A stretch of DNA of 64,000 nucleotides from Gluconacetobacter dulcium (GTDB lineage: Bacteria; Pseudomonadota; Alphaproteobacteria; Acetobacterales; Acetobacteraceae): NCBI RefSeq assembly GCF_014174165.1, contig NZ_JABEQN010000002.1, positions 124,001 to 188,000 on the forward strand. Direction: 5' to 3'. The position numbers and the translations under genes were made by a program. Below the pieces are notes generated by a model. It worked only from the letters and a program-made list of their open reading frames with translations, was not told where the DNA came from and did not search any database. Of the stretch, positions 2,041 to 27,178 are shown piece after piece; the stretch's first letter is position 1; each line of letters opens with the position of its first letter.

Positions 2041-2088
2041 TTGATTTCCTTGAGTTTTTCGAGGAAACGGCATGATAAAATTTGGGTT

Positions 2089-2134: not shown

Positions 2135-2135
2135 C

Positions 2136-6828: not shown

Positions 6829-6857
6829 GCCCAGCTCCATAGAATCTAAGACCTCAT

Positions 6858-6959: not shown

Positions 6960-6960
6960 T

Positions 6961-7203: not shown

Positions 7204-7221
7204 CGTTTCATCTCCCATTGA

Positions 7222-7267: not shown

Positions 7268-7268
7268 A

Positions 7269-7830: not shown

Positions 7831-7904
7831 TTCGCCGCTCCATAACTGGTGACATGCTATTATAGCCGACGACGGCCATTCCTTTGGCGAGCGCAAGCGA
7901 GACA

Positions 7905-7934
7905 AAGGCGCACTTACGAGTCCTGGCGGACTCG
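7905..7934 (-). other. oriT: Origin of transfer (oriT), IncQ/MobA-type
   Basis: Read on the reverse strand, a perfect 7-bp hairpin CGAGTCC-GCCA-GGACTCG (7934-7917) is followed at once by TAAGTGCGCCTT (7916-7905). This matches the known layout of the RSF1010/R1162 and pSC101-type oriT: an inverted repeat next to a TAAGTGCGCCCT-like nic region. It lies between the divergent TraD-like gene and the MobA/MobL relaxase gene, where such origins occur. Confidence 0.85.
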
Positions 7935-7988
7935 ACGTGCGACGCAGCGGCGTCGGTCACCTGCGGCGGCGGAACAGAGGAAACAGCG

Positions 7989-11988: not shown

Positions 11989-12936
11989 TCATTCGGGTAT
12001 GAATTCAAGCCGCGCGAAACCGAGCTTTCCGGTCGCCTTGCAGATTTGCAGCATGTCCGATGGTTTTCGGCGCAGCATCCATAAAATGCCGAAAGCCGAC
12101 ATCTGTGCGAGTGCGATGAAATAAATATTCATCCGCGTTATGATTTTATGCTGGCTGATCGCGACGCGGACTTCCGCTGAATGCCTGGAACTGCGTTGGA
12201 CGCGGCGGCACATATAGCGGAAATTCTGTCGGCCGCTCTCGTTGAATTCGATGACCGGGGCATCCGGACACCAGACGAAATGTCTTCCGTCTCTGGCGAG
12301 ACGGAGCAACAGCATTGTATCTTCGCCGCCGGTCCTTCCAAATTCTTCGTCGAACGGTTTGCTCTGCGCCAGACAAGAAGAGCGTTTGAGCATGACATTT
12401 GCCGTGCTGACGCCCCTGGGGCGGGGAGGAAACCATTTCAAAGGATCGATCCGGGTATCGGGCGGCAGACCGAAATCGGTCGTATAATAACGGCCCTGCG
12501 GATCCCATGACGGTGGAGTGCCTCTTTCGAAAATCGGGTAGACAGCTCCGAAACTGGCATCGGCTCCGGTGCGCAGGAGGCATCGGTAATGGGCCATGAG
12601 CCAGTTCGGCTCGGGCGCCTCGTCATCATCGACGAATGCGATGAAGGCGCCGTTTGCTGCCTGTATGCCCATATTGCGTGCGGCGGCGATATTGCGCTCG
12701 CCCGCTTCGACGTGCCGTAACGGGATATCGCTGTGGAATGTCGCGACCAGGGAACGTGCCAGGCGGGCAGGGTGATTGTCAGCTATGATGATCTCCCATG
12801 AAACGCCAGCATCGACCACCTGACACAGGCAGGCTGTGATGGTGCGTTCCAGCAGGGCCAGGCGATCAAAGCATGGGATCACGATGCTGACATGTGGGGT
12901 ATGATCAGGGGCTCCCGACTGTCCTGCCTCTATCAT
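11989..12936 (-). CDS. Family 2 glycosyltransferase
   Basis: A 315-residue GT2 enzyme. VSIVIPCFDRLALLERTI opens the nucleotide-binding fold, FVDDDEAPEPNW carries the DxD-type metal/sugar-nucleotide motif at about 113-124, and FGRTGGEDTMLLLRL supplies the later acidic (E/D)D motif. The C-terminus has a weakly hydrophobic stretch (YFIALAQMSAFGILWML) that may touch the membrane. It should add a sugar to a lipid-linked repeat unit in the inner leaflet. It is a paralogue of 19792-20748: both share PPSWDP, GGED and FVWC in the same order. The donor sugar cannot be told from sequence. Confidence 0.85.
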   Translation of the reverse strand: MIEAGQSGAPDHTPHVSIVIPCFDRLALLERTITACLCQVVDAGVSWEIIIADNHPARLARSLVATFHSDIPLRHVEAGERNIAAARNMGIQAANGAFIAFVDDDEAPEPNWLMAHYRCLLRTGADASFGAVYPIFERGTPPSWDPQGRYYTTDFGLPPDTRIDPLKWFPPRPRGVSTANVMLKRSSCLAQSKPFDEEFGRTGGEDTMLLLRLARDGRHFVWCPDAPVIEFNESGRQNFRYMCRRVQRSSRHSAEVRVAISQHKIITRMNIYFIALAQMSAFGILWMLRRKPSDMLQICKATGKLGFARLEFIPE

Positions 12937-13016
12937 CTGCTTGCCAATTCCTTCACAGGCTTGCGCGAGGAACGATTGTTTTTGAATTTGACAGACCCCT
13001 TGGGCATAAAGAACTT

Positions 13017-14459
13017 ATGATGGCAGAACCAGCTTCCGTTCTTAAAGAGTATGCTCCTACCCGACGACCCCAGCAATTCGCGGTGCTCATTCTGCTGCTC
13101 GTGTTTGGATATGTCATCATCGGCATTCCGAGTTTCGACAGAAATGCGCCCCTCGCTTCGGAGATGAACCAGGAATATGTAAGTCCTGTCAATCGCTTCA
13201 TCTGGCTGGCTTTTTTTGCGGCATGCCTTCCATTTGCAATTTCCTCCGGTCAGAAATTACGACGCCTCTTGTTGGCGGCGTGGCCGCTCGTCGGGCTGCA
13301 TGTCTATTTTTTGCTAAGCGCTACGTGGGCATTGGATCCGTCAACTTCGGCACGCCGCATTCTATTTGCCTGGGTCCAGATCCTCGTGGCGGCCAGCCTC
13401 GTTACGACCATAAAAAAAGCCCAGACCCTCCATAAATGTATCGCTTTCATATGCTTTGGCGGCGCGGTGGCGGATCTGCTGATCTGGATCGCCCGGCCAG
13501 GCTATGCGATGACCAGTGAAGGGCTGGCGGGGTTTCAGGAGCAGAAGAATTCGGCTGGTCTGCTCATGATGTATGGACTTCTTGCGACGGGCTCCTTTCT
13601 GCTGTCATGGCTTTCGACAGGGAGGCGGTGGGTTTACGTCGCGGAATGCGTGCTGATGTTCGGCCTATTGCTGGCGACGAAGTCGAAGACAAGTCTTGTA
13701 ATCGTTCTCTTGATGCCGATGCTGCTGGCTGCGGGATATCGTCTGAGAACAGCCTCTGAGGTGATGCAGATTTTTGTGGCCGCATTTGCAGTGGGCATCA
13801 TCGGGATGAGTATTCTTGCCTACATGACCTGGTGTGCCATGAGCGGGCAGGACATATGGTCGGTTCTTCAGGGAATTACATTCACGAGCCGCACTGACAT
13901 CTGGTCATTCATGTTGGATGAGATCTCTCAGCGACCCATTTTGGGGGCTGGATATTCGTCTTTCTGGTCAATCAAGCCTTCTTTGCAACCGAGCTTGAAG
14001 ACATCGATGTGGTTCGGAAGTGAGGCAAATATTAACGAAGCCCATAATGGTTATCTGGATCTTTTGGCAACAGGTGGATGCGTAGGCTTTGTTCTGGGAA
14101 TATTCGTCGTGGGGCGGTATCTTTATCTGAGCTTCAAAGCGATCAAATATAATAGACATAGAGACAAGAGGGCCTCGGCTTTCTTTAGTCCGGAAACGGC
14201 GATATTCCATTTTTCATTTATGCTTGCATTGATCATTCATAATTTTACGGAATCAAACCTGTTTACCGGTAGTGGCATGATTATGGTTTGTTTCTATTTT
14301 ATCGCGTTTGATCTGGAAAAATGGGAGTTATACCGGAAATCCGACGAGGATGGGGTGCTTTCGGATGATGAGCGTGCGCGCCTTGGGCAGAAGAAGAAGA
14401 GTTTCAGATCAGAGCACCAGCCCGGCACAGATATGGACGCTAGAGCAGATCCTGTTTGA
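13017..14459 (+). CDS. O-antigen/exopolysaccharide polymerase (Wzy/ExoQ-like)
   Basis: A 480-residue protein with about ten hydrophobic segments and the periplasmic loop typical of the O-antigen ligase/polymerase family, including SRTDIWSFMLDEISQRPILGAGYSSFW and NEAHNGYLDLLATGG. Wzy enzymes join lipid-linked repeat units in the periplasm. ATG 13017 is followed by a second ATG at 13020; the frame upstream overlaps the divergent glycosyltransferase. The stop codon sits inside the end of the inverted-repeat element at 14450-14866, so the last residues may have been altered by that insertion. Confidence 0.85.
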   Translation: MMAEPASVLKEYAPTRRPQQFAVLILLLVFGYVIIGIPSFDRNAPLASEMNQEYVSPVNRFIWLAFFAACLPFAISSGQKLRRLLLAAWPLVGLHVYFLLSATWALDPSTSARRILFAWVQILVAASLVTTIKKAQTLHKCIAFICFGGAVADLLIWIARPGYAMTSEGLAGFQEQKNSAGLLMMYGLLATGSFLLSWLSTGRRWVYVAECVLMFGLLLATKSKTSLVIVLLMPMLLAAGYRLRTASEVMQIFVAAFAVGIIGMSILAYMTWCAMSGQDIWSVLQGITFTSRTDIWSFMLDEISQRPILGAGYSSFWSIKPSLQPSLKTSMWFGSEANINEAHNGYLDLLATGGCVGFVLGIFVVGRYLYLSFKAIKYNRHRDKRASAFFSPETAIFHFSFMLALIIHNFTESNLFTGSGMIMVCFYFIAFDLEKWELYRKSDEDGVLSDDERARLGQKKKSFRSEHQPGTDMDARADPV

Positions 14460-14866
14460 ATGCGTGCATTCAGATAGGTGAAGATGCTTGCAAAACAATA
14501 AACCAGAGCATTTCCATCGAACCGATTTTCGATGAAAATGCTCCAGTCAGGTTTCTCGCTTTTCTGATGGTCCTGAATATATCCGCCGAGCACCGCTGTC
14601 CTGATCGCGGGCACGACGACGTAGGCGGATATCACGGTAGAAATGGTGTGCACTTGTTTCGATAACGAGCACGCACAGGCCGTAATCGATCTTCCGTTTC
14701 ATATTTTTTGTCAATGAAGACATCGAAGCACGGTCCGCGCCTGGGGGGTATTTGCACGCTTCAGGGGAGTATGAGTATTTCCGTCGAATACCGGGGCGAA
14801 GAAAAAGCGCTAGTTTATTGTTTTTGCGACCGTGGTTACCTCTTTGAATGCACGCATTCAAAGAGG
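14450..14866. mobile_element. MITE-like element with imperfect terminal inverted repeats
   Basis: Both ends carry the same sequence in inverse orientation: TTTGAATGCGTGCATTCA at 14455-14472 and its complement ending near 14862, with similarity continuing inwards for about 55 bases to AACAATAAAC. The ends are themselves palindromic; the right one is a perfect 13-bp stem (14839-14866). An inner hairpin (14507-14544) contains GAGCATTT and AAATGCTC. There is no transposase. It separates convergent polymerase and phosphatase genes and may also act as a two-way terminator. Confidence 0.65.
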
Positions 14867-14883
14867 AACCGCTTTAGCAGGTT

Positions 14884-15471
14884 CTAGAATGATGGAGCCC
14901 ACTTGGAAAAATCGGTCTGAAGCATGATTTCTGTGTCGGAGTGATATCCATAGAAAGAAAAGATAACGATCGTCAGGACGGCAAATGTCGGCAGGATTAC
15001 GCGACGGGGCATCGGGACGAGCAGGCATGTTGACGCCACGGCCACCGATATGCCGAGTGCCCCCCCCAACAGGACTTCAGGCAACGTATGAGAATGAAGG
15101 ACGAGGCGTGTGTATGAAAACATGTAAGCGATGACAACCGGAACGGGCAGGTAGAAAGGGAAAAGGCGTTTTTTCCGGAAGATTAGAATGTTGATGAGGC
15201 TACCGTAGATCGCCGTTCCCGCGGAGACGTGACCACTGACGCTAAGGGGCCTGCCCAGACTGTCGGAAAGATAGGCCCACTCCAGTCCAGCGAGTTTGGC
15301 TAGCATCAGTACGGCGAGCGCAGTTCCTGATATTGCTCCCCAGATGATGGCGCCACGCATCCATCCGAAAGCGGCAAATAGAATGATAGAAACACCTACG
15401 ATTGGAAGCAGCACGGCGCCGTCTCCAAAATCAGTGAGAAATCTATCGAGTTCCAAGGGATGCAAAATCAT
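14884..15471 (-). CDS. PAP2-family membrane phosphatase
   Basis: A 195-residue membrane protein with about five or six hydrophobic helices. SGHVSAGTA and TRLVLHSHTLPEVLLGG correspond to the second and third phosphatase motifs of the PAP2 superfamily; the usual final Asp is Glu here. The first motif (KxxxxxxRP) is not evident, although GRPLSVSGH keeps the RP. A natural role is dephosphorylating undecaprenyl diphosphate released by polymer assembly. It overlaps the upstream CpsD-like gene by 4 bases (ATGA) and is the last gene of the reverse-strand GumC-CpsD unit. Confidence 0.75.
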   Translation of the reverse strand: MILHPLELDRFLTDFGDGAVLLPIVGVSIILFAAFGWMRGAIIWGAISGTALAVLMLAKLAGLEWAYLSDSLGRPLSVSGHVSAGTAIYGSLINILIFRKKRLFPFYLPVPVVIAYMFSYTRLVLHSHTLPEVLLGGALGISVAVASTCLLVPMPRRVILPTFAVLTIVIFSFYGYHSDTEIMLQTDFSKWAPSF

Positions 15472-16163
15472 ATGGGAAGATGATAAAGAATGCTGGGAAT
15501 GTGAGAGCGACGTTTGTTGAATACGGCGCCTAGTATGTTGCCTTTTACTTCTTCAATTCTATAGATAAGATCCTTTGCCTCGCTTTTTTTTGTTTCTTCA
15601 GCACCGATGACGATAATGGATGCGTCGATGTAGGAAGAAAGAGCGACGCCCAGATAGGATGCCCGAAGGGGAGGAGCATCGATGAAAATCACTTCATAAC
15701 GAGGCTTCCATTTTTTGATCTGCTCAATCCAATCGATCGGATGTTTTTGCGCGTCGGTGGACGGCATCGCAATGCTGAGCGAAGAATCTTTGACCTTTCG
15801 GACTTGAAGCCAGTCGCCGTCCGGCTGCGCATCGGAAGCACTGCTGGCCGGAGCGATCAGGCGCGAGGCAGGAATATAATATTTGCGGACGATTGACTCT
15901 TCGAAAGAACCGATCGGGCCGTCAAGCGAGATGAGAAGGGTTTCAACACCCATATCGCCGCCGGATACGACCGAGAAATCACGCGCGACGCTCGTGGTCC
16001 CGATTCCGGATTGTGTTGCGATGAACTGAAGGACAATCGCGTTGCTCTTTTGACGCGGCAGCATATAAAGCAGCCGCTTTATTTCCGTCTCAAGGATCAG
16101 ATGGGGAGGCAACGTGGACGCATTGCCAACGGAAGGAGGGGGGGAAGACGCTGTGCCGTTCAC
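15468..16163 (-). CDS. CpsD/CapB-like tyrosine-kinase-family protein, degenerate Walker A
   Basis: A 231-residue protein with the fold of bacterial tyrosine kinase/MinD ATPases: EIKRLLYMLPRQKSNAIVLQFIATQSGIGTTSVARDF, a Walker A' like LLISLDGP, and YEVIFIDAPPL for Walker B. The P-loop reads SGIGTTS rather than GxGKTT, so the ATP-binding lysine is missing. There is no tyrosine-rich tail (it ends SILYHLPI). It sits directly downstream of the co-polymerase gene, 3 bases apart, as CpsD does after CpsC. It is probably a non-catalytic partner of the co-polymerase. Confidence 0.8.
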   Translation of the reverse strand: MNGTASSPPPSVGNASTLPPHLILETEIKRLLYMLPRQKSNAIVLQFIATQSGIGTTSVARDFSVVSGGDMGVETLLISLDGPIGSFEESIVRKYYIPASRLIAPASSASDAQPDGDWLQVRKVKDSSLSIAMPSTDAQKHPIDWIEQIKKWKPRYEVIFIDAPPLRASYLGVALSSYIDASIIVIGAEETKKSEAKDLIYRIEEVKGNILGAVFNKRRSHIPSILYHLPI

Positions 16164-16166
16164 AGT

Positions 16167-17519
16167 TCATTGTTTCTCATAGAGAGGAATGGACAGAAGT
16201 ACGGGTACGTGGAGGCCATGCTCGACATCGCGGACGGTGACGAAAATCTTCTGGGTCACGACCCGGAAAGCAAGCATGCCGACTGCTGCAACAAGCCCGA
16301 GCATGAGCCCCATTCCCAGAAGCGGCAGTCTGAGTGTCGACCCCTGAAGCGGTGCATTGGGGGGATGAACAATCCGGATGTTTGCGCTGGCCAATTGGGA
16401 AAGAGAGGAACTCAAGGTTGTGGCTTCGACATTGTTTTCGAGTGTTTTGTAGCTGTCGGCGAGCGTATCGCGCGTTGTCTGAAGATCACGATATTGGCCC
16501 GATAGCTGGGTCAACTCGGCCAGACGCAACTGAAGTGCATTCCGGTCATTCGTTACCGCATCGCGTTTGGAACGCAGGCCCGCTGCACGGGATTCCAGAA
16601 GGACCTGTTGCTGTTTCAGCTCCTCGTATATGGTGCTGGTTCCATTGCGCTTCACATTCGTCTCGCGGGCGGGCGATTTCCGAAGTTGTATTTCGATCTC
16701 CCTGATCTGATGGCGAATGTCGACCACAAGCGGGAATGTGTTCTTATAGCGTTGCCTCACGTCGGCAAGCTGAATCCGCAGTCGTAGCAGGCGATCGAGT
16801 AATGTTTTCCGCGCCTGCCCGATATCTGTCTCCGTGAACAGTTCGATTCGCGATGGAAGCGTCGACAAGGTTCCATTCAGGACTTTGGTCTGGGCATCGA
16901 GATTGTCGATTTCGCTGTCAATGCCGGTCTGTTCGTCGGCCAGATCGGCCGCCCTGCGCAGGATGATGCTGGTCTGCTGATTGAGGTCGCTGATATTGTG
17001 CGCCAGACTGAAGGCAACGATCTTGTCGTTGGCATCTTTCAGGCGGGCGGCCATCTGGGCGACCAGTCGCGCCGGCCCGTTGTCGCGATTGCCCATGAAA
17101 ATTTCACCATGATAAATGATATAATCATGGATGATCACGTCCAGCGCTTCAAGAGCGACCTGTCGGTCGCGATTGCGCAGTGAGACTTCGATAATATTGG
17201 ATTGAGGAACGCCGTCGACGCGGAGATCCCTGAGCAGGCGTGTCGCAGCCTGCTGTTCCCCCAGCGGGGTATCGGGCATCTCCGGATAGAGGCGCCGGAT
17301 ACCGACATCCTGAATCACGCGTGCGGCCAAGGCGGGGCTTTGAATGATTTCCAGTTCACCCTGGATAATCTGATTGCGATCGAGCGCGACATCGCCGCCA
17401 TTCTCCTGCCCGATCGGGTGGAAGACATATTCGCCACCATACAGGATCAGCAGGCGAGCCTGCGCTGTATAGATCCGATGGGCTCCGAGGATGGCGAGCA
17501 GACTTAATACGAGAGGCAC
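16167..17519 (-). CDS. Polysaccharide co-polymerase (Wzz/GumC-like), frameshifted at its 5' end
   Basis: The open frame encodes 450 residues: a cut-off first membrane helix (PLVLSLLAILGAHRIYTA), a Wzz-type periplasmic region with long coiled coils (about 120-360), PNAPLQGSTLRLP, and the second helix GMGLMLGLVAAVGMLAF. Such proteins set chain length and link polymerase to the exporter. A second frame from ATG 17639 encodes KESFQLRL...LAALFYYKKSVFF and joins this one perfectly if one base is added in the A8 tract at 17528-17535. The full gene is therefore 16167-17639, disrupted by a one-base deletion, slippage or a sequencing error. Confidence 0.82.
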   Translation of the reverse strand: MPLVLSLLAILGAHRIYTAQARLLILYGGEYVFHPIGQENGGDVALDRNQIIQGELEIIQSPALAARVIQDVGIRRLYPEMPDTPLGEQQAATRLLRDLRVDGVPQSNIIEVSLRNRDRQVALEALDVIIHDYIIYHGEIFMGNRDNGPARLVAQMAARLKDANDKIVAFSLAHNISDLNQQTSIILRRAADLADEQTGIDSEIDNLDAQTKVLNGTLSTLPSRIELFTETDIGQARKTLLDRLLRLRIQLADVRQRYKNTFPLVVDIRHQIREIEIQLRKSPARETNVKRNGTSTIYEELKQQQVLLESRAAGLRSKRDAVTNDRNALQLRLAELTQLSGQYRDLQTTRDTLADSYKTLENNVEATTLSSSLSQLASANIRIVHPPNAPLQGSTLRLPLLGMGLMLGLVAAVGMLAFRVVTQKIFVTVRDVEHGLHVPVLLSIPLYEKQ

Positions 17520-17639
17520 AAGCGCGGAAAAAAAACGCTCTTTTTATAATAAAACAGCGCCGCCAGGATATCTCTCGCCGAATGCCGCGCATACGACATC
17601 GATCTGTTGGTCAGGCGTAGTTGGAAGGATTCCTTCATG
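17520..17639 (-). other. Out-of-frame 5' end of the co-polymerase gene
   Basis: ATG 17639 starts MKESFQLRLTNRSMSYARHSARDILAALFYYKKSVFF (shown here as the predicted cytoplasmic tail and helix start; the frame ends soon after at TAA). Adding one T to the eight-T tract on the coding strand fuses it to the GumC-like frame. The ATG overlaps the stop of the upstream fragment, as in a coupled operon. Confidence 0.7.
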
Positions 17640-17880
17640 ACGCCCTCAGTTCGGCAGAATCATATTTGGCTGGTTGCGTCAAAACCGTCATTGATGCCAG
17701 GTCACCAACAGACACGATGCCGTTGTCGGCGGTCACGATCCCCACAGTCGGCGCTCCACTCGGAATTGAAGTGCTTGATGGCGCCCTCAAGTCGATTTGC
17801 ACCATGAAAGCGCGATCAGGGAGATCATGGAAGTCTCCTGAAGGCTCCCATTCCGCTTGCCGAGCCGATTGCCCTTGAAG
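17635..17880 (-). CDS. C-terminal fragment of a secretion/adaptor-like protein (possible remnant)
   Basis: On the reverse strand a coherent sequence, DRAFMVQIDLRAPSSTSIPSGAPTVG followed by IVSVGDLASMTVLTQPA, ends in TGA overlapping the co-polymerase ATG. The style resembles the C-terminal beta region of HlyD-type adaptors. There is no room for a full gene because the exporter gene starts at 17923 on the other strand, and no ribosome binding site was found. The start is not defined. I read it as the remaining 3' end of a gene lost by rearrangement, though a small real protein is possible. Confidence 0.35.
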   Translation of the reverse strand, partial: LQGQSARQAEWEPSGDFHDLPDRAFMVQIDLRAPSSTSIPSGAPTVGIVTADNGIVSVGDLASMTVLTQPAKYDSAELRAS

Positions 17881-17922
17881 AAGGAACGGCTTATTGAGAA
17901 ATACATTGCGTTCTGAAGGGAC

Positions 17923-18645
17923 ATGTTGGCTGTGACATTCTTGCGCCGGTTGCCTGTCGTGCTGCTTGCCGTGTGTTTCGCTGGCTGTGTCCAGCATCTC
18001 GATCCGAAACCTCATAGCGCCCGTAACTTTGCTCCATGGACCAATGATCCAGTCCCATACCGGCTCTCTCCGGGAGATGTGGTAGCCTTACAATTTACGC
18101 TTAACCCAGAACTCAATGAAAATGAACTCTCAATCGCACCTGACGGTACGATCACCGCGCCGCTGCTGGGGGCCGTCGATGCTGCGGGCCTGAGTCTTGT
18201 CGAACTGAAAAAAAACCTTCAGCGACGATATCGCGCTTATCTTCGCCAAGCGTCATTCGATGTCCTTATCCACAGCTACGGGGCGGCGCAGATCTATGTG
18301 GGGGGAGAGGTCAAGACGCAGGGAATTTATCCGCTAAAGGGCGCCACGGATGCGATGCAGGCCGTCGTGACCGCTGGCGGTGCCATCGATTCCGCAAAAT
18401 TGGCGCAGACAATCGTGATCCGACGCAGGGGCGACGGGCGTCCGATGATGCGGACGGTCGATTTGCGACATTACCTCAATACGGCGGATACGCGCGACCG
18501 GGTGATGCTTCAGCCAGGCGACCTGGTCTATGTGCCCAAGACCGAGATTGCCTCGTTCGACATCTTTATCGATCAGTATCTGGACAAAAGCGTGCCGTTC
18601 AACAAGACGTTCAACTACAATATGGGTTCGAGCGTCTTTTATTGA
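17923..18645 (+). CDS. Polysaccharide export lipoprotein (GumB/Wza-like)
   Basis: A 240-residue outer-membrane export protein. It has a lipoprotein signal peptide with the lipobox-like CFAGC near residue 22, a Poly_export domain (YRLSPGDVVALQFTLNPELNENELSIAPDGTITAPLLGAV shown by its LSPGD and PDGTI motifs) and one SLBB domain (YVGGEVKTQGIYPLKG...MLQPGDLVYVPK). AAGGG lies before ATG 17923. It is shorter than Wza and close to GumB in size. It starts divergently from the co-polymerase operon, with which it should form the trans-envelope export channel. Confidence 0.9.
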   Translation: MLAVTFLRRLPVVLLAVCFAGCVQHLDPKPHSARNFAPWTNDPVPYRLSPGDVVALQFTLNPELNENELSIAPDGTITAPLLGAVDAAGLSLVELKKNLQRRYRAYLRQASFDVLIHSYGAAQIYVGGEVKTQGIYPLKGATDAMQAVVTAGGAIDSAKLAQTIVIRRRGDGRPMMRTVDLRHYLNTADTRDRVMLQPGDLVYVPKTEIASFDIFIDQYLDKSVPFNKTFNYNMGSSVFY

Positions 18646-18716
18646 CCTGATGCGGATATCGGTCCAGCCGTGGGGAAACTGGGCTGCTTATGCGATGACA
18701 AGGGCTTGCTGATTTC

Positions 18717-19721
18717 ATGCGTGACAATCCGGTTTCCTTTCGCGTGCTGGGGATGTTCGGGGGGCGGGAGAAAGCCGCGGAATTGTCACGCAGGCTGATG
18801 AAAAAGGTAAAAAAAGCTGCGAATTTTTTAATATACCTTGTTCTTTTTCCACTATGGTATCGTCGTGGCGCACCTGAGCGAACGAATATTGATTATATTT
18901 CTTTTCCTGAAAAGGCGGGAGGGGGGCGACCGCTGCCGCGAATTGTCTGGATTTATTGGGACGACCCCGACTATCCGGAATATATAGATATTTTAGTGAG
19001 CCGAATACGTGACCTCAACAGGGATTTTGACGTTCGATTTCTGAATAGAAAGACGGTAACGCATTATATAGACGACTATATGAATGCGCAGCCTGGTCTT
19101 TCGGCTGTTACGCGGGCAGACCTGATCAGGCTGGAACTGATCAAGCGCTATGGTGGGATATGGATTGACGCGACGAGCATCGTCTTTGAAAATTTTTCCT
19201 GGATTGAAGAAAAATTTTGTGAAGGGGCGTATAATTTTGTCGGATATTTTTCAGCGTGTTTTACGGTAAACCCTAATTTTCCTATACTCGAAAACTGGTT
19301 GATTGCGGCCCTTCCGGAAGATGAATTGATTTGCGCCTGGCTGGATGAATTAAAGAAAATAGTACAGTTTGGTGCTGATGCGTATTTTTTTCATCTAAAG
19401 GCACGGTCGGATTATCAGGACATTCTTCAAAAAATTAAATATCCAGAATATTTTCTGGCATATCTGTCGTGTCAGGTCGCGATGCGGCAGGTTGCGTCCC
19501 TGTCGCTCCATGTTCGGGACTCAGGCCAGTCGGGGTTACTTTATCACGATCTGGTCAATTGGGTTCCTTACCGAATCGCCTTGATGTTGTGTGCCAGTGC
19601 GATGCCGGGATCTCCTCCGCCGCTCGTTAAAATTACGCATACCGAACGATATCTTATTAACGTCATACTGAAATTTAATCTGTTCAATAGGAGAAGTTTT
19701 GCAGGATTACTGAAGGGTTGA
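18717..19721 (+). CDS. Capsular polysaccharide synthesis glycosyltransferase (DXD type)
   Basis: A 334-residue protein of the Caps_synth/Gly_transf_sug type: PRIVWIYWDD in the nucleotide-binding fold and RADLIRLELIKRYGGIWIDATSIV (DxD-like IDAT near residues 144-150). An N-terminal hydrophobic stretch (ANFLIYLVLFPLW, about 35-47) may anchor it to the membrane. It should transfer a sugar to the growing repeat unit. The coding region is clearly more AT-rich than its neighbours, a sign of separate acquisition. The start is uncertain: ATG 18717 lacks a clear ribosome binding site, and the next in-frame ATG lies 12 codons on. Confidence 0.78.
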   Translation: MRDNPVSFRVLGMFGGREKAAELSRRLMKKVKKAANFLIYLVLFPLWYRRGAPERTNIDYISFPEKAGGGRPLPRIVWIYWDDPDYPEYIDILVSRIRDLNRDFDVRFLNRKTVTHYIDDYMNAQPGLSAVTRADLIRLELIKRYGGIWIDATSIVFENFSWIEEKFCEGAYNFVGYFSACFTVNPNFPILENWLIAALPEDELICAWLDELKKIVQFGADAYFFHLKARSDYQDILQKIKYPEYFLAYLSCQVAMRQVASLSLHVRDSGQSGLLYHDLVNWVPYRIALMLCASAMPGSPPPLVKITHTERYLINVILKFNLFNRRSFAGLLKG

Positions 19722-19791
19722 CTGGATTCGCGCGCTTTCGCTTCGACATCTCGGGGATGGCTGCATTATTTGCGGCGATGCGCGTGTCCTG

Positions 19792-20748
19792 TCAGTAAAG
19801 GGCGTGTCTCTTGAACCATGTGATCTTTCCCACGGCGGCCGCGAGTTTGAAGATCAGCATCGCGAGACGTGGGGAGGTTCCTTTTCTGGCCCAGAGGCTT
19901 TCGGCCGCGGCCCCCGGAAGGGCGAAGAGGCAGGCAATGCTTTGCAAGAGCCCCTGTATGCTCAGATGAAGCACAGCCAGATACGCGCTCCGGGCATTTC
20001 GGATGGTCGTAACGGCGTATATCTGCCCGCCACAATAAGAACGCTCGGCGAGGTGGCGTAACGTCATGCGATTTTGGGGAACATATTCGTAGACGTACCC
20101 GCTGCCGCACCACACGAAGCGGCGGCCGCGTCTATACAGTCGCTGGAAAAGGTCGATATCTTCACCGCCTGAAAGGCCGAATCGCTCGTCGAAAACGCTC
20201 TGATCGGTGAAGCATGTCTTGCGTCGCCACAGGCTGTTGCCGGTACCGATCGAGAAGGCGCGCGTCTTGTTCGGGCCGGCCGGGAAGACCGGTGTTCCAT
20301 CCTTCCTGTCCCATTGTCGGCCGAATATGCTGGCGTCTGGATCCCACGATGGGGGCTGGACGGCCGGATTGGGGCGCACCGCGCCAACGACTGCGTCGGC
20401 GCCGGTTTCCTGCATGATCGAAAAGAGATGAGCGAGCCAGTCGGGGCCGGCTTCCTCGTCATCATCAAGAAAGGCTACGGCACCGCCGGAGGATGCCGAG
20501 ATACCGGCATTGCGCGCCACGGCGATATTGGCGGGGTGCGCTTCTATCCAGTGGAGCGGTATTGAAGCCGACTGAAAAAAAGTCCGGAGGTCGCGTGTCG
20601 TGCCTTTCGCGCTGTTGTCCACGATAATGATTTCGAAGGTCGGGCCCGTCGGCGATGCCTGGGCGATACAGGAGCGGATTGCCTTGAGCAGCAATTCTCT
20701 GCGATCGACTGTGCAGATGACGATCGAGATGTCGGGGACAGCCGCCAT
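19792..20748 (-). CDS. Family 2 glycosyltransferase (paralogue of the 12-kb gene)
   Basis: A 318-residue GT2 enzyme: ISIVICTVDRRELLLKAI, NIAVARNAGI, AFLDDDEEAGPDWL (metal-binding acidic motif, about 100-113) and FGLSGGEDIDLFQRL. A C-terminal helix (YLAVLHLSIQGLLQSIACLFALPG) may contact the membrane. It shares the PPSWDP, GGED and RFVWC landmarks with 11989-12936, so the two are likely duplicates that diverged to different linkages. It is transcribed divergently from the GT4 gene at 21013. Confidence 0.85.
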   Translation of the reverse strand: MAAVPDISIVICTVDRRELLLKAIRSCIAQASPTGPTFEIIIVDNSAKGTTRDLRTFFQSASIPLHWIEAHPANIAVARNAGISASSGGAVAFLDDDEEAGPDWLAHLFSIMQETGADAVVGAVRPNPAVQPPSWDPDASIFGRQWDRKDGTPVFPAGPNKTRAFSIGTGNSLWRRKTCFTDQSVFDERFGLSGGEDIDLFQRLYRRGRRFVWCGSGYVYEYVPQNRMTLRHLAERSYCGGQIYAVTTIRNARSAYLAVLHLSIQGLLQSIACLFALPGAAAESLWARKGTSPRLAMLIFKLAAAVGKITWFKRHALY

Positions 20749-21012
20749 GCGTTACGTTCCATTGGGAGATCTGCGTGGAGAGAAGGCATCTATCGGGAGA
20801 CAATGCGTTTTGCACATTTCCCACAGCGCGCTTCCACGGGAAATGATCCATGCTTTACCCGTTGGGTTCAAGGTCCGCCAAATAGAGGGCATGGGTGCTG
20901 TGCCGTCAATTCGGGAACGGGCGCGAGCATGGGGCGGTATGCCGGGTTTGTTGCGCGCCCTGCCGGGAGGAATGCCTTGAATCATATGAAACAGCCTGCG
21001 AGACTCTCCTGA

Positions 21013-22407
21013 ATGTCCATGGCTCCTACAGAAGCGTTGAAGACGATGGCTGGGGGCGGAGGCTCCTCGTGGCGTCCGCGCGTCCTGATGCTTGCTGAAT
21101 CGTGCAACCCTGAATGGATCAGCGTGCCCTTGGTCGGCTGGTCGCATTATCAGGCGGTGGCACGGCTTGCCGACGTGCATCTTGTCACGCGGACCCGCAA
21201 TGTTGCCGCCCTTCGCCGGGTAGGGTTGAAAGAAGGAGACGATTTTACCGCGATCGACACGGAATTCGTCTTCGAACCTATGGTTCGGCTGGTCCGTTTC
21301 ATCAGTGGGAAGGGGCGCGGATGGACCCTGCTGATGGCCCTGACGCTTCCCTCCTACCTTTTATTCGAACATCTGGCATGGCGCCGATTTCGGCGCCGGC
21401 TTCGGAGCGGACAGTTCGATGTCGTTCATCGGGTGACGCCCGTCAGTCCCGCGGTGCCCAGTCCGCTTGCCTCGCGGTGCAGGCGTTTGAAGGTGCCGTT
21501 TGTATTGGGACCGCTTAATGGTGGCCTGGCCTGGCCGAAGCAGTATCCGGAACTTCGCCATAACGAACGGGAAGGATTTTCGCGTTTCCGGGATGTCTTC
21601 AAGCTGCTGCCGGGCTATCGGCGGACTCGTGAAGCCGCGAATGCGATCATCGTCGGTGGACGCAGCGCCCTGGCTGAAATCCCGCGGAGATGGCGTGCGA
21701 AGACGATCTATCTGCCCGAAAACGGTTACGATCCGGCACGTTTCCCCACGCCGCCGGTTCGGACGGCCGATGCCTATGTGGCGCGTCCGCTGCGTGCGAT
21801 CTTCATTGGACGCCTCGTGCCTTACAAGGGGTGCGACCTGTTGCTTGAGGCCGCCGCTGCGCTGATCGCTTCAGGCCGGTTGACGCTGGACATCATCGGG
21901 GATGGACCGGAAAATGGACGGCTGAGGCAATTGGCCGCGGATCTGGGGATTGAAACCGGTGTCAGATTCCTGGGCGAGTGTTGTCACCGCGTTTCGATGC
22001 AGCATCTTGTCGGGGTGGATATCCTGACCTTTCCGTCGTTGCGGGAATTCGGCGGCGCGGTCGTTCTGGAAGCGATGGCCATGGGGGTGGTGCCGATCGT
22101 GGTCAATTATGGCGGACCGGGAGAGTTGGCGTCGCCGGACTGTGCCTTTCTGCTCCAGATGAAGGAGCGATCCGGCCTTGTCCACGACCTGCGCGATATT
22201 CTGGCAGGTATTGTCGCCGACCCTGCCCAGCTTGTCGGGCGCGCGGAACGCGGCATGCGTCGCGCGCGCAGATTTTTTGCCTGGCCCCGCAAGGCAGAGC
22301 AAATATTGTGTGTCTATCGCTGGGTCGTCGGCCGGACGGATATCAGGCCGGATTGGGGAGCGCCGTTCTCTGACGTGGATGATGGCGGGGACGCTTGTTC
22401 CGCGTGA
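21013..22407 (+). CDS. Family 4 glycosyltransferase
   Basis: A 464-residue GT-B enzyme. The N-terminal acceptor domain includes FDVVHRVTPVSPAVPSP and PFVLGPLNGGLAWP; the C-terminal donor domain has RAIFIGRLVPYKGCDLLLEA, LDIIGDGPENGRLRQL and REFGGAVVLEAMAMG (the EX7E motif at about 350-360). Retaining transfer from a nucleotide sugar to the lipid-linked repeat is expected. Its last 94 bases overlap the 3' end of the convergent flippase gene. The start is the first ATG of the frame; a clear ribosome binding site is lacking. Confidence 0.86.
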   Translation: MSMAPTEALKTMAGGGGSSWRPRVLMLAESCNPEWISVPLVGWSHYQAVARLADVHLVTRTRNVAALRRVGLKEGDDFTAIDTEFVFEPMVRLVRFISGKGRGWTLLMALTLPSYLLFEHLAWRRFRRRLRSGQFDVVHRVTPVSPAVPSPLASRCRRLKVPFVLGPLNGGLAWPKQYPELRHNEREGFSRFRDVFKLLPGYRRTREAANAIIVGGRSALAEIPRRWRAKTIYLPENGYDPARFPTPPVRTADAYVARPLRAIFIGRLVPYKGCDLLLEAAAALIASGRLTLDIIGDGPENGRLRQLAADLGIETGVRFLGECCHRVSMQHLVGVDILTFPSLREFGGAVVLEAMAMGVVPIVVNYGGPGELASPDCAFLLQMKERSGLVHDLRDILAGIVADPAQLVGRAERGMRRARRFFAWPRKAEQILCVYRWVVGRTDIRPDWGAPFSDVDDGGDACSA

Positions 22408-23624
22408 GAGGTATCGTGCAGGGCGCCCTTCAAATAGAGGGCCATGCTGAGACACTGGACGGCCTGGCCGGCAAGCGTTCCGACGATGACCAGGGAGTAA
22501 TCGGCATTCCTGGAGAGTGCTGCCATGCACGCGCAGGTCGTGAGCGCGGCCAGGACATCGGTTATCGCCAGGGAGCGATATCGTTTCATGGCGAGCATGG
22601 CGGTGCCGCCAACGGCTGACAGGCCGCCCAGAACGACGTTGCATCCCCAGAGCAGGATGAGATGACCATTCCGCTCGTAGCGTCCTTTATACAGGAGCCG
22701 CGAGATCTCGGGCCAGCCGAGTTCCACGCCTCCGGTCCAGAGCAGGCTGCCGAGAAGCGGGAAAAGGAGTCCTGCCCCAAGCACGGCCAGAAAACGTCGA
22801 TGATTGTGATCCCGCCACAATCTGGCGAGCTGCGGCTGACTGACGGATGACCAGGCCGCGCTGAGCATCCAGGCCGGCCTGATCGCGACCTGCGTGGCCG
22901 ACAGCATGGCGAGGGAGTTCGCGCCGTAGCGTCCGGCGGTTACGAAGCTGAACAATCGATTGGTTAATTCCGACGATCCGGCGCCAAGCAGAATCCAGCC
23001 GGAACTCCGTAGATAATGAAGATGCGGGCGGATCGCCTGCCACTGAACGAGCGGTCGTCGGCCCTTTGTGAAGCCGACCAGCCAGATCAGCGCCACGATA
23101 CCATATGACGTGCCTGCGAGTGCCAGCCCGATATCAGGCGTGGGTGCGTATCCATAGAACGAACAGACAGATGCCATGCCGATGAAAAGGAACAAGGTGC
23201 TCGCTGTGAGCGCGGTTGCGCAATCCGGTCTGTGATGAGCAAAGAATAATGCTCTAGTATATTGATATATAAGAAAAAATGGAACAAAAAAAACGGCGCT
23301 TGACGCGTGGAACGGGCTGTTGCGATGGAGCAGGATGGCACTGGCGCCCGCGGTGATCGCAGCGGCGGCGAAAACAAATAAAATATGGATGGTCAGGAAG
23401 AAACGTTCAGCGGTTTCCCTTTCCTCCTGATCGGATGCATTCAGTCCCGCGAGATGTGAGGTGACCAGCGTCGACTGGGCGGCTCCGCTGATCCAGGCCA
23501 CGGCGAGCCACAAAGCATAGACACCATAGGCATCAGGCCCGCCTTCGCGCGCCATCCAGAGATTGACGATGAATGTCAGCAGGGCACCGAGAATTTGATC
23601 GGATAGGGAAATCAGGAAGCGCAT
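22314..23624 (-). CDS. Polysaccharide flippase (Wzx-like, MATE/MOP superfamily)
   Basis: A 436-residue integral membrane protein with about 12 hydrophobic helices, starting MRFLISLSDQILGALLTFIVNLWMAREGG, the standard first helix of Wzx/RfbX flippases. It should move lipid-linked repeat units across the inner membrane. ATG 23624 is preferred because it puts helix 1 at the N-terminus; the frame is open to 23714. The hydrophilic C-terminal tail (HAEQASPPSSTSENG...) is encoded entirely within the 94-base overlap with the GT4 gene. Confidence 0.83.
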   Translation of the reverse strand: MRFLISLSDQILGALLTFIVNLWMAREGGPDAYGVYALWLAVAWISGAAQSTLVTSHLAGLNASDQEERETAERFFLTIHILFVFAAAAITAGASAILLHRNSPFHASSAVFFVPFFLIYQYTRALFFAHHRPDCATALTASTLFLFIGMASVCSFYGYAPTPDIGLALAGTSYGIVALIWLVGFTKGRRPLVQWQAIRPHLHYLRSSGWILLGAGSSELTNRLFSFVTAGRYGANSLAMLSATQVAIRPAWMLSAAWSSVSQPQLARLWRDHNHRRFLAVLGAGLLFPLLGSLLWTGGVELGWPEISRLLYKGRYERNGHLILLWGCNVVLGGLSAVGGTAMLAMKRYRSLAITDVLAALTTCACMAALSRNADYSLVIVGTLAGQAVQCLSMALYLKGALHDTSHAEQASPPSSTSENGAPQSGLISVRPTTQR

Positions 23625-24158
23625 GGACGAATCATGCCTTGTTGCGAGGCCGGCCGAGGAAAAAGGGGAGGCGTGACAGGTGCCCGGCCATTCATGACGC
23701 GGGAGAGCGAACATAGGCGTTCGTTAAAATGCGATGAAGTGACAAAATCGAGGAACGGGACGTGGAACGGGCCTGTGCTGGATAGGCTCTGTTATATCCG
23801 GATGATGGTGCCTATATAGGGGAAGTGGCGGGCAACTGCGCGACTTGCATTTTTCTTTCGTCTCGTCGCAACCCTATTCTGGATCGCGCTTTGACGGAGC
23901 CCGGCACTTCCGTGGAGGTACTTTAATGTGCTGCGGCCACGGTACGGAATATTTTACCGGCTTGGCCGTGTAGCGCGGATGATCTCCCCCCGGTTTCTTT
24001 TCGGGGGTGAATGTGCCAGAGATGAAGTGGCTACGGCCAAGAGTGCTGCTAGAGTGGAATTGAATGATTCCTGGAATCGTGGAGCGGAGGGTGCTCATGA
24101 GCGCGGTGCCGAATCAGTGGGCCGGCGCGCTTCGGCATGTCGTTGGCGTTTTCTTCTG
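23625..24158. other. Gap between the flippase and the secreted-protein pair
   Basis: About 530 bases without a convincing gene. It must contain promoters for both flanking units. TATATAGG near 23813 is AT-rich, and a good ribosome binding site (GGAGG at 23913-23917) precedes a 15-codon open frame at 23926-23973, followed by a 6-bp C/G hairpin near 23986-24007. The frame of the next gene stays open upstream to 23928, but its sequence looks non-coding. Confidence 0.4.
23926..23973 (+). CDS. Possible short leader peptide MCCGHGTEYFTGLAV
   Basis: Fifteen codons starting MCCGHG, with GGAGG 8 bases before the ATG, then a CCCCCG/CGGGGG hairpin about 13 bases after the stop and the secreted-protein pair some 190 bases on. 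A strong ribosome binding site on so short a frame followed by a hairpin is the layout of a leader peptide/attenuator. The twin cysteines hint at a cysteine or redox signal. Chance occurrence is quite possible. Confidence 0.25.
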   Translation: MCCGHGTEYFTGLAV

Positions 24159-24491
24159 ATGGATCGCTCGCGCTGGCTGATCCTGCCAGGTCTCGCGATT
24201 TCCATGGCTGTGATCGTGCCGTGCATTGATATGCGGGCTCATGCCCAGCCAGTTGGCCGGCAGGAATGCAAATGGATATGGGACTGCACGAAGGGGCGGT
24301 GCAAACATACGCCGCAATGTGCAAATAATTATGACTTGATCCCACCTGAACCACAGGAGCTTCCTCCGCTTGTGCCGATTGATAGCGGAGCCTCGATCGT
24401 TCCAGATATTCTGCCTGCGGCTGGAAGCCATTGTCCGCCCAAACGGACGTGCGATCAGGATGGGAAATGCGTCTGGGAGGTGAAATGCTGA
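24159..24491 (+). CDS. Secreted protein with duplicated four-cysteine module
   Basis: A 110-residue protein. An N-terminal signal peptide (WLILPGLAISMAVIVP...AHAQ, cleavage about residue 30) is followed by two similar modules: CKWIWDCTKGRCKHTPQC (C-x5-C-x4-C-x5-C) and, 40 residues later, CPPKRTCDQDGKCVWEVKC (C-x5-C-x5-C-x5-C), separated by a proline-rich linker. The eight cysteines suggest four disulfides in the periplasm or outside. I do not recognise the family. ATG 24159 is chosen because it gives a proper signal peptide. It is coupled to the next gene, which begins inside its last codons. Confidence 0.62.
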   Translation: MDRSRWLILPGLAISMAVIVPCIDMRAHAQPVGRQECKWIWDCTKGRCKHTPQCANNYDLIPPEPQELPPLVPIDSGASIVPDILPAAGSHCPPKRTCDQDGKCVWEVKC

Positions 24492-24880
24492 TGCGCGCGG
24501 GATTCCGGAATGTGGTGTTGCCTGTTCTGACGGGCCTGATGGCTGTTGTTGCCGTCCTGCCATTCACGGCACACGCGCGCTGTTATGGCCCCGCGAAGTT
24601 CCAGACCTGTGAAAATCTCAATGATGGCGCGCGCATAATTGTTGCCCATGAAGGGCATAATAGTGTCATCATGGGCGCTGATCCGGGGACAGGGCATACC
24701 TTCCAAGGGTTTGCCACTACGCTTGGACAGACGACCTATTCCAGTAACATCGATTTTCATGCGCGCGTTTCGTTTGAATCGCTCGATAGTTATGCGCCAA
24801 GCCAATATCATATCGAAGGTCGTAATTTTGATAAAAGACCTTATACTTACCAATGCACTGTTCTTCTTGGTTGCTATTGA
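24485..24880 (+). CDS. Secreted protein of unknown function
   Basis: A 131-residue protein with a signal peptide (NVVLPVLTGLMAVVAVLPFTAHA, cleavage about residue 33) and a mature part beginning RCYGPAKFQTCENLNDG, ending with YTYQCTVLLGCY. Four cysteines lie in the mature chain. GGGAGGTGAA lies before the ATG at 24485, which overlaps the end of the preceding secreted-protein gene, so the two are translationally coupled and probably partners. No known family is recognised. The position within the polysaccharide locus suggests a surface or polymer-related role, as inference only. Confidence 0.62.
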   Translation: MLMRAGFRNVVLPVLTGLMAVVAVLPFTAHARCYGPAKFQTCENLNDGARIIVAHEGHNSVIMGADPGTGHTFQGFATTLGQTTYSSNIDFHARVSFESLDSYAPSQYHIEGRNFDKRPYTYQCTVLLGCY

Positions 24881-25011
24881 TAAAAATATCTTCAGCAGTG
24901 CGTTGCGTGTTGTTACGCCGTAAATTCATATTTCAATGGGGATATTTATGATAAATGCACAATATGTTCTATATCGAGATCGAGCCCGGTGATAAATTAT
25001 TCTAATCAGGC

Positions 25012-25806
25012 ATGGTTGAAGGCTTGAAATTTATGCCTGTCTCTGTTCCTCAATCGCTTGGGCCACTGTTCGGCCTGCATTTTACCCTTCTTTCAGAGAC
25101 AGAAATCGTGCGTCTTGTTGCGGAGCACGTGCCATCGCCGGAAGAAGGTGTCCATCTGGTCGTGACGCCCAACATCCAGCATGTCGCGCTCATGCGGGAG
25201 AACGGTGAATTCCGTAAGGCTTGCGAGCAGGCGGAGATCCTGACCTGCGATGGTTTTCCGCTCTATTATTATGCACGGTGTCGCGGTTTGCGGCTGCCGG
25301 GCAGGGTGACTGGGCGTGAAATTACCCAAGACCTGTTCGCGATGCCCGAAGCCCTGAAAAAACATCGGATATTTGCCGTCGTTGACAGTGAGCGCACGGG
25401 GCTGGTTGCCCGCCAGTGGGCATGCGCGCATGGGATGGAGGACCAGTTTGCCTTTTACGTGCCGCCTGTCGGCTTTGAGAACGATCCGGGCCTGTCGGGT
25501 TCTCTGGCACGGTTGATCCGCGATCATGCGACGACCCTGCTGTTCATGGGCGTCGGCGCCCCGCGGAGCGAGCTGTTCGTCAGCAGGCATCGGGCGGACC
25601 TGCCGCCCTGCTGGGCGTTGTGTATCGGACAGTCGTTGCTCGTCGCCCTGGGCCTTTTGCCAACGCCCCCGTTCCTTGTTCAGCGCCTTAATCTTGAATG
25701 GTTATGGAGAATCTGCCTGGAACCTCGACGTCTGACCGGGCGATATGTCCGGGCGCTGTTTGGCTTCGGTGTCGCCGTTTGCGAGGATCTTCTGCGCCTT
25801 GGCTGA
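25012..25806 (+). CDS. WecG/TagA/CpsF (GT26) glycosyltransferase, GumM-like
   Basis: A 264-residue enzyme with VVTPNIQHVALMRENGEFRKA (shown by its TPNIQH motif), LTCDGFPLYYYAR and LLFMGVGAPRSELFVSRHR, the conserved blocks of the GT26 family that adds ManNAcA, ManNAc or glucose-type residues to a lipid-linked sugar. It is a soluble enzyme that binds the membrane through its C-terminus. The gene ends one base before the start of the priming sugar transferase gene, so the two form an operon that starts and extends the repeat unit. Several ATGs are near the start; 25012 is the first. Confidence 0.88.
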   Translation: MVEGLKFMPVSVPQSLGPLFGLHFTLLSETEIVRLVAEHVPSPEEGVHLVVTPNIQHVALMRENGEFRKACEQAEILTCDGFPLYYYARCRGLRLPGRVTGREITQDLFAMPEALKKHRIFAVVDSERTGLVARQWACAHGMEDQFAFYVPPVGFENDPGLSGSLARLIRDHATTLLFMGVGAPRSELFVSRHRADLPPCWALCIGQSLLVALGLLPTPPFLVQRLNLEWLWRICLEPRRLTGRYVRALFGFGVAVCEDLLRLG

Positions 25807-25807
25807 C

Positions 25808-26899
25808 ATGTTCGATCTTCGGGCGGAAGCTGCCCATCTCGCCGCACGTATTTCCGCATCCGATGTCCATCAATCGCCGTTTCCGTCCGGTAGTAATCCA
25901 CTGGCACGGCGACGGAGTGTCGTGATCGTGGGAGGCGCGCCCGACGGGGAAATGATGGCCCGTCGGCTTTTGCAGTTTCCGGAACATTATGAGGTTCGGG
26001 GGATTTTCGACGATCGTGTGGGGCGGCTTGGTCATCTCGCTCACGTCGTTCCCTTTCTGGGCAATCTGGACGATCTTCTGATTTTCTGCCGGGAGAACCT
26101 GCCGGATATTATCATCATTTCTATATTTTCGCTGAGCCAGGAACGGTTCAGGAGTATTTTTGAGAAAATACGGGTGATACCAGCGGATATTTATCTGGCT
26201 GTTCAGGAGCATGGCGAAGACAAGATAGACGGGGAAGTGTTGGGAAAGTCTGAGTTCTCCGTCTTTCTCGTGGAAAAGCAGCCTTTGTCTGGTTGGAATT
26301 TTTTTGTGAAATTCCTGGAAGATCGGGTACTGTCCTTTTTACTGCTTTTTATATTCTCGCCACTTTTTGTAATGATATGTATTCTGGTCAAATGTGACAG
26401 TCGAGGACCGATCCTCTTCACGCAGACCCGCTATGGATTTAATTCGAAGCCTATTCGGGTACTCAAATTCCGGACCATGCGCACCGAACAGGCTGACCCG
26501 TCCGGAGCGAAGCGAACTGTGCGGGACGATCCTCGGGTGACGCGGGTCGGCCGCTATCTGCGCCGCTATTCTTTCGACGAACTGCCGCAATTGTTGAATG
26601 TGCTGAAGGGGGAGATGTCGATCGTCGCCCCCCGTGCACATGTTGCCGCGATGCAGGTCGACGGTGGATTATATGAAGATGTCGTGAAAAATTACTTGAG
26701 CCGGCATAAGATAAAACCCGGCATTACGGGGCTGGCCCAGGTCAAAGGATGCCGGGGAGAGGTGAAAACCCTTGTGGATGCCAAGAGGCGGCTGTGTTAC
26801 GACCTTTTTTATATTAATCATTGGTCGCTTTGTCTTGATCTTAAAATTATCCTCATGACAGTTTATATTGTTCTGTGTAAAAATAAAAATACGTATTGA
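25808..26899 (+). CDS. Priming sugar transferase (WcaJ/GumD-type) lacking the N-terminal membrane helices
   Basis: A 363-residue protein. Residues about 38-140 are a Rossmann-like domain (SVVIVGGAPDGEMMARRL). A hydrophobic hairpin (FLEDRVLSFLLLFIFSPLFVMICIL) and the bacterial sugar-transferase domain follow, with RYGFNSKPIRVLKFRTM, RRYSFDELPQLLNVLKGEMS and KPGITGLAQV. It should load the first sugar-phosphate on undecaprenyl phosphate. Full WcaJ/GumD proteins have four more N-terminal helices; here the ATG at 25808 leaves only about 37 residues before the Rossmann domain. It may be a natural short form or a trimmed one. Confidence 0.87.
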   Translation: MFDLRAEAAHLAARISASDVHQSPFPSGSNPLARRRSVVIVGGAPDGEMMARRLLQFPEHYEVRGIFDDRVGRLGHLAHVVPFLGNLDDLLIFCRENLPDIIIISIFSLSQERFRSIFEKIRVIPADIYLAVQEHGEDKIDGEVLGKSEFSVFLVEKQPLSGWNFFVKFLEDRVLSFLLLFIFSPLFVMICILVKCDSRGPILFTQTRYGFNSKPIRVLKFRTMRTEQADPSGAKRTVRDDPRVTRVGRYLRRYSFDELPQLLNVLKGEMSIVAPRAHVAAMQVDGGLYEDVVKNYLSRHKIKPGITGLAQVKGCRGEVKTLVDAKRRLCYDLFYINHWSLCLDLKIILMTVYIVLCKNKNTY

Positions 26900-27104
26900 C
26901 GGTCTTTCGGGAAATCTGACCACCTATACAGGCAGGTGAATGAACGTAGCCTCACGGTTTCGATGGGGCATCGGGGCTGGCCGAGTGGCTCGCTTCCGGT
27001 GACAACGAAATGGGGCGATATACCGGCCTGTTCACATATCGAAATTGATTGTGCGGGAGACGGCGAACCATTTCCCGTGAGTGTGACCAGCGAAAAAAGT
27101 CGGG

Positions 27105-27178
27105 TGGAGGTCCGGGCGGGAATCGAACCCACATACGCGGATTTGCAGTCCGCTGCATCACCATTCTGCCACCGGACC
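27105..27178 (-). tRNA. tRNA-Cys (anticodon GCA)
   Basis: On the reverse strand the acceptor GGTCCGG pairs with CCGGACC, the anticodon loop reads CTGCAAA (GCA, cysteine), the T-arm is GGGTTCGATTCCC and CCA is encoded. A TTTTTT tract follows the gene at about 27098-27093 on the reverse strand. Confidence 0.95.

Follow-up and report, generated by a model that had tools for sequence, protein, structure and literature searches.

Two unnamed families of small exported proteins in a gum/acetan-like polysaccharide locus of Gluconacetobacter dulcium

Two neighbouring genes in an exopolysaccharide (EPS) locus of Gluconacetobacter dulcium, here called A and B, encode members of two unnamed exported protein families; the setting is ordinary and the parts are new. 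The genes lie within the window, the whole stretch of 64,000 nucleotides that was analysed. We propose, at a probability of about 0.45, that both proteins are exported and serve as accessory factors, which bind the locus's own polymer or its export machinery or help to process that polymer, a reading drawn from sequences and predicted structures in which the binding is inferred. To our knowledge, the trimming, retention and anchoring of Wzy-made gums outside the inner membrane are poorly understood. A and B are small exported parts that accompany the EPS loci of food and cellulose-producing acetic acid bacteria.

A preliminary description of this DNA had proposed two small exported proteins encoded in overlapping frames. 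Both frames were confirmed (Table 1), with an overlap of 7 bases (ATGCTGA) if B starts at 24485. An alternative B start is ATG 24491, within TGATG; the K. swingsii junction, AAATGCTGATA, keeps the first ATG alone. Because only this first ATG is common to both species, the start at 24485 is preferred, and the two accordingly have the 7-base overlap in common. The GGGAGG sequence before B lies 4 bases from ATG 24485 and 10 from ATG 24491. Upstream of A, a leader reading frame of 20 codons (24097–24159), with a GGAGGG site just before it, ends as TGATG on the A start codon; no similar peptide was seen in five other species examined, in some of which the A start is uncertain.

Hydropathy and visual inspection were used to judge the signal peptides. 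Each protein has one hydrophobic N-terminal segment (residues 7–25 of A and 10–28 of B) and, by eye, an A-x-A-type cleavage site, with no lipobox visible in either. Thus, Sec export of both proteins to the periplasm or beyond is likely. Purifying selection was assessed by comparing pN with pS in 15 species pairs for A (6 species) and 6 for B (4 species), and pN was the smaller in all 21. Between G. sacchari and G. liquefaciens, A has a dN of 0.15 and a dS of 1.12; many of the other synonymous distances are saturated, and therefore the direction of pN/pS alone is safe. Both frames thus have homologues and are under purifying selection; the preliminary description would have been refuted by the lack of these, or by conservation of just one frame.

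Table 1. Coordinates of the A/B gene pair, of the parts of A and of the polysaccharide genes in the window
Feature	Position	Strand	Basis or remark
Family 2 glycosyltransferase	11989–12936	−	Pfam
Wzy_C protein (polymerase/ligase); true start maybe internal	12894–14459	+	Pfam
Copolymerase-like protein (GumC-like, label inferred)	16167–17519	−	homologous across loci
Export protein (Poly_export, SLBB; Wza/GumB-like)	17923–18645	+	Pfam
Caps_synth protein (probable glycosyltransferase)	18717–19721	+	Pfam
Family 2 glycosyltransferase	19792–20748	−	Pfam
Group 1 glycosyltransferase	21013–22407	+	Pfam
Putative flippase (Wzx), divergent from A; true start maybe internal	22317–23714	−	label inferred, polytopic protein in Wzy locus
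Gene A, exported 8-Cys protein, 110 aa	24159–24491	+	orthologues in 7 species; two hairpins in AF2 model
A module 1, residues 37–54, C-x5-C-x4-C-x5-C, invariant W39, W41, H50	24267–24320	+	alignment; model strands 38–44, 47–53
A linker, residues 55–91, Pro-rich, exactly 37 residues in 7/7 species	24321–24431	+	
A module 2, residues 92–110, C-x5-C-x5-C-x5-C, invariant G102, W106	24432–24488	+	alignment; model strands 95–98, 104–107
GGGAGG, possible ribosome binding site for B	24475–24480	+	read from junction
A stop/B start overlap	24485–24491	+	identical in K. swingsii
Gene B, exported beta-repeat protein, 131 aa, Cys33, 42, 124, 130	24485–24880	+	
WecG/TagA/CpsF glycosyltransferase (GumM-like)	25012–25806	+	Pfam
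Initiating sugar transferase (GumD-like, Bac_transf)	25745–26899	+	Pfam

Judged from its gene content, the surrounding locus (about 12–27 kb) is a Wzy-type gum/acetan-like EPS locus. Its Pfam content comprises a Bac_transf initiating transferase, WecG, Wzy_C, Poly_export/SLBB, a PAP2 protein and glycosyltransferases. The flippase (Wzx), GumC-like and kinase-like proteins had no Pfam match above cut-off, and these labels were assigned from position, size and hydropathy; the putative flippase is polytopic, with 8 segments by hydropathy. The tie to polysaccharide genes that had been suggested from the window alone holds across species: all seven species that carry A have it in a polysaccharide locus together with a flippase orthologue, the other six flippases being 46–66% identical to that of the window. 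In six of the seven, A adjoins the flippase gene divergently, and in K. swingsii the two are ∼6 kb apart in the same locus. A search of 110 relatives gave flippase orthologues in 4 (the sample presumably excludes genome G072, whose flippase is 50% identical), and A stands beside the flippase in three of these four. Those three are the A-bearing genomes of the window's genus. The fourth, G019, has flippase, Wzy and glycosyltransferase genes with neither A nor B at the locus; thus, A follows a subset of these loci.

The order of genes around A varies. It is flippase(−), A, B, wecG, gumD in the window and flippase(−), A, acyltransferase-3, wecG, gumD in G. sacchari and G. liquefaciens. On a plasmid of K. 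saccharivorans, and in G072 and G762, it is flippase(−), A, GH5, B, while K. swingsii has GH5(−), A and B with the overlap, the flippase gene being the distant one. In the 19.5 kb of G072, the flippase is the sole reference gene found besides A, GH5 and B, so the wider locus is not constant. The idea of a coupled pair is borne out in part: the A–B overlap is kept in two of the five B-bearing species, but a GH5 gene intervenes in the other three, and A occurs in seven species where B occurs in five. The EPS region (12000–27000) has a G+C content of 0.546 against 0.627 for the window, and it was possibly acquired as a block, ending near a tRNA-Cys gene (27105–27178). To its left, a tRNA-Glu gene (1965–2040) is followed by integrase-like (2136–3332), resolvase-like (6268–6873) and relaxase-like (7884–9395) reading frames, labelled by eye; 1965–9395 is probably an integrated element.

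A was found in seven Gluconacetobacter/Komagataeibacter-type species: that of the window, G. sacchari (L008/L012, G007), G. liquefaciens (L009/L013, G006), K. swingsii (L014/G771), K. saccharivorans, G072 and G762, species with several records being counted once. B was found in five of these and not in G. sacchari or G. liquefaciens. With single-protein searches, A was recovered from 4 and B from 2 of 147 relatives, the window's own genome included in each. Profile searches gave A in 6 of 176 relatives (4 credible) and B in 2 of 176, and across the class A in 2 of 385 genomes, of which the own genome alone is credible, and B in one of 240, again the own genome. Among 14 listed genomes of the window's genus, three have A and one has B. 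Of 19 genomes of the genus of G072, the same 3 carry both A and B, and searches at E 0.001 found neither in the other 16; as the genes are neighbours, this co-occurrence counts once, as a linked trait, rather than as two independent observations. A pattern scan of the species collection for A returned K. swingsii, G. sacchari and G. liquefaciens, the plasmid collection gave the single relative in K. saccharivorans, and the viral contigs contained no relative of A. A match to A in G104 (E 8.9e-4) was rejected, its locus (L011) holding no small secreted Cys protein, as were matches in G105 and G064, which have internal stops.

Neither protein was recognised at the outset, and this stands: no match at cut-off was obtained for A or B in Pfam, NCBIfam (for A, the window protein only) or PDB sequences, and B had no PHROGs match. 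Weak matches to UPF0176_N (E 0.07) and TrhO (E 0.046) were dismissed.

Profile comparison shows B to be a member of an unnamed family of small exported proteins with predicted 23-residue beta repeats. Alignment of four Acetobacteraceae B proteins with five others by hhalign gave a probability of 99.5% (E 2.5e-22) over 109 columns, the full length, and the family profile repeats at an offset of 23 (z 6.1). The 23-residue period is not clear in the window's B alone, where the best offset is 42 (z 3.3) and offset 24 reaches just z 2.2. Relatives were found in 43 viral contigs (duplicates included), 2 phage records and 12 plasmid records of five genera, a prevalence in phages and prophages that may reflect the collections searched; in bacterial genomes, the broad B profile was run on the relatives and one genus, and a 4-row profile on 240 class members. 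The phage and prophage family (L045–L087) likewise gave no hit to Pfam or NCBIfam at cut-off or to PHROGs at E 0.001 in the 35 rows scanned. A match of B relatives to the NCBIfam PA0050 family was rejected, since it spans the signal peptide only in the one protein checked, and Shiga-toxin B matches were dismissed as far from cut-off (E 0.018 and 0.049). The gene at one of the phage-type loci (L071) was not found in E. coli genomes by blastn.

The structural model of B has a mean pLDDT of 81.7 (82–93 per block from residue 31) and a pTM of 0.58, and it predicts a meander of nine to ten antiparallel strands. The best Foldseek hits had E 0.05 (PDB) and 0.04 (viral structures), and the best VIA hit, a designed barrel, had Z 9.5, little above the stated background of 7–8. 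No PDB or viral structure thus matched the model convincingly, which is silent on whether the fold is new; these scores neither place B among the known beta-barrel or single-layer beta folds (lipocalin-like, OspA, MORN) nor set it apart from them.

The four cysteines first counted in the mature B of the window are confirmed, and the family gives them a pattern: of 43 proteins, 35 contain four cysteines and the remaining 8 contain two, and the C-terminal pair is the one absent in those 8. From these counts, the cysteines come as two pairs, the C-terminal pair being present or absent as a unit. The 43 are 33 viral rows, the B proteins of the window and K. swingsii, and those of L010, L015, G762, L021, L024 and L042–L044; 10 duplicates or near-duplicates of the 43 viral loci and the short Sinorhizobium proteins L022 and L023 were left out. 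In the five acetic acid bacteria that have B (loci outside the window: L014, 8839–9596; L015, 9896–11855; L010, 8816–10726; L098, 9461–11484), the four-Cys form occurs in the two species with the A–B overlap and the two-Cys form in the three with the order A–GH5–B.

A phage-type surface function is the strongest rival for B. B would then be a surface-conversion (moron) protein in a variable polysaccharide locus, guarding the surface of the cell (against other phages, for instance) or altering it, with no part in polymer making, and A would be separate. The relatives in viral contigs, phage records and several plasmids, the full-length profile match to them and the lower G+C content of the EPS region (0.546 against 0.627 for the window) all speak for this explanation. 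However, in the relatives searched, B was seen only beside A or one gene off (2 of 176 relatives; 3 of 19 genomes of the G072 genus), and the phage bias may stem from the collections used. On balance, we consider the moron explanation unlikely.

The enzyme gene that accompanies A and B in some loci is, by its Cellulase domain and its similarity to solved enzymes, a predicted GH5 endoglucanase gene. All three GH5 proteins tested matched PF00150 (Cellulase) above cut-off, and the nearest solved relatives are endoglucanases such as 4ee9 (E 8.8e-43 for one GH5), which we take to be RBcel1. The proteins begin with RRxxL, a form of the twin-arginine motif, which suggests that they are exported too. 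Five of the seven A loci carry a GH5 orthologue. In three of them it separates A from B, in K. swingsii it neighbours the pair, and in G. sacchari it lies at the far end of the locus; neither the window nor the G. liquefaciens stretches examined contain it. A genome-wide search of the window's genome gave two weaker GH5 matches elsewhere. This arrangement would also fit A and B being proteins that regulate, inhibit or aid the export of the glucanase, and the linkage to GH5 is the sole support for the 'inhibitor pair' proposed earlier. Yet the G. liquefaciens locus has A, and the window has both A and B, in the absence of that GH5, and control or export of the enzyme seems a rather improbable role for the pair. 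A BcsZ-like role is discussed for a relative of RBcel1 in the available excerpt of PMC8900817.

The architecture read from the single sequence of A, two four-cysteine modules joined by a proline-rich linker, recurs in all seven species, with the linker constant in length, and shuffling the mature A of the window 200,000 times with its composition preserved never produced two such modules. The modules are CKWIWDCTKGRCKHTPQC (residues 37–54) and CPPKRTCDQDGKCVWEVKC (residues 92–110); the window protein has an extra cysteine, Cys22, within the signal peptide. In the alignment of six species, all eight module cysteines are invariant, together with W39, W41, H50, W106 and others. The cysteine spacing within the modules is mirror-symmetric, which in a hairpin places C1 opposite C4 and C2 opposite C3, all on one face. 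To this face, module 1 would add W39, W41 and H50, and module 2 would add W106.

Each module is therefore predicted from its cysteine spacing to be a beta-hairpin with nested disulphides, and the AlphaFold model supports this. Registers 91 and 202, which pair C37–C54, C43–C48, C92–C110 and C98–C104, were written down before the AlphaFold result, and the predicted strand limits (Table 1) are symmetric about them; the comparison uses the reported strand limits only. The model is weak overall (mean pLDDT 59.9, from 4 sequences), with block values of 72–83 for residues 41–70, 75–76 for residues 91–110 and below 50 for residues 1–33 and 73–89. The conserved Trp and Cys residues of A also fit protein binding. 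That A is the precursor of a secreted antimicrobial or signalling peptide, its two hairpins active after release, is most improbable: the window protein has a basic module 1 and nested-disulphide Trp hairpins resemble beta-hairpin antimicrobial peptides such as tachyplesin, but module 1 differs in charge among species, the linker never changes in length, no processing site was seen in A and the gene stays in polysaccharide loci.

Our preferred reading remains that of accessory proteins acting on the polymer or its export machinery. A would be a two-headed spacer, its disulphide-laddered hairpins each presenting Trp on one face and held apart by the 37-residue Pro-rich linker, and B would be a beta-meander of about four 23-residue repeats with disulphides pinning its ends. 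Both may bind the locus's own polymer or its export machinery, in the periplasm or at the surface, so that polymer could be held for processing by GH5 (where present), for acylation or for retention on the cell. Polymer binding is suggested by the aromatic face of A and its fixed two-headed form, by the repeats of B and by the GH5 or acyltransferase genes that accompany them, although the loci of the window and G. liquefaciens are without that GH5. We infer the A–B partnership and its site of action. Two species have A without B and one related locus has neither, which argues for A and B being accessory rather than core parts, and the presence of A without B in G. sacchari and G. liquefaciens means that an obligate A–B complex is not needed. 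The 'surface complex' or 'polymer-modifying factors' suggested earlier are possible and come near this explanation. A more specific and speculative variant, to which we give little credence, is that a recruited phage-type B, a two-headed hairpin ruler A and a transglycosylase-like GH5 form a device acting on a cellulose-like polymer backbone; such a device would cut, join or anchor the backbone outside the inner membrane.

Several known systems can be set beside this locus. In the available excerpts of PMC5050591 and PMC6528568, the acetan/gum-like EPS clusters of acetic acid bacteria have gumD, gumM and gumB/C-like genes, as the window does, and some gum/acetan clusters include an endoglucanase gene and hypothetical proteins; A and B are undescribed in the excerpts of openly licensed PMC papers that were searched. 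PslG, AlgL, PgaB and BcsZ, as far as the excerpted literature describes them, are exported products of EPS loci that act on their own polymer, as A and B may do; these are enzymes, whereas A and B match no enzyme family.

For A, the nearest likeness is to Cys/Pro proteins at two loci (L028 and L029) in two genomes of 7–9 Mb from one other genus. Both share with A a signal peptide, a Cys module, a Pro linker and a closing C-x5-C-x5-C-x5-C with Trp; they differ in a first module of CxCxC... form, a shorter linker and no EPS genes seen within 3.2 kb. The match is weak (E 2e-4 and 2e-3 per genome among 299 genomes). That search gave 13 matches at E 0.05, the window's own and 12 others, of which L028–L031 were inspected; L030 and L031 were dropped, L028 and L029 were kept as possible module 2 relatives, and the 8 others (E 0.003–0.045) stand outside the count. 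The L028 protein had no plasmid match. At L029 (1498–1776, minus strand), the C-terminal module of an A-like protein is without both inner cysteines, a single case of joint loss that fits C2–C3 pairing.

For B, the comparison is with exported beta-repeat proteins of phages and prophages, for example Phage CBW1004C-Prop1 gp55 ('putative exported protein'). Common to both are the signal peptide, the full-length profile match, a mature start with C-x-G, the C-x8-C spacing and a C terminus that is either a Cys pair or a Cys-free tail; the 23-residue repeats of the family are clear in its profile and less so in the window's B alone. The window's B shares 16–35% identity with the other 34 rows, retains little of the GNTT-type motif and, unlike them, sits in a bacterial EPS locus. 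It is thus a bacterial relative, with a meaningful genetic setting, of a phage-exported family, and may help to reveal that family's role.
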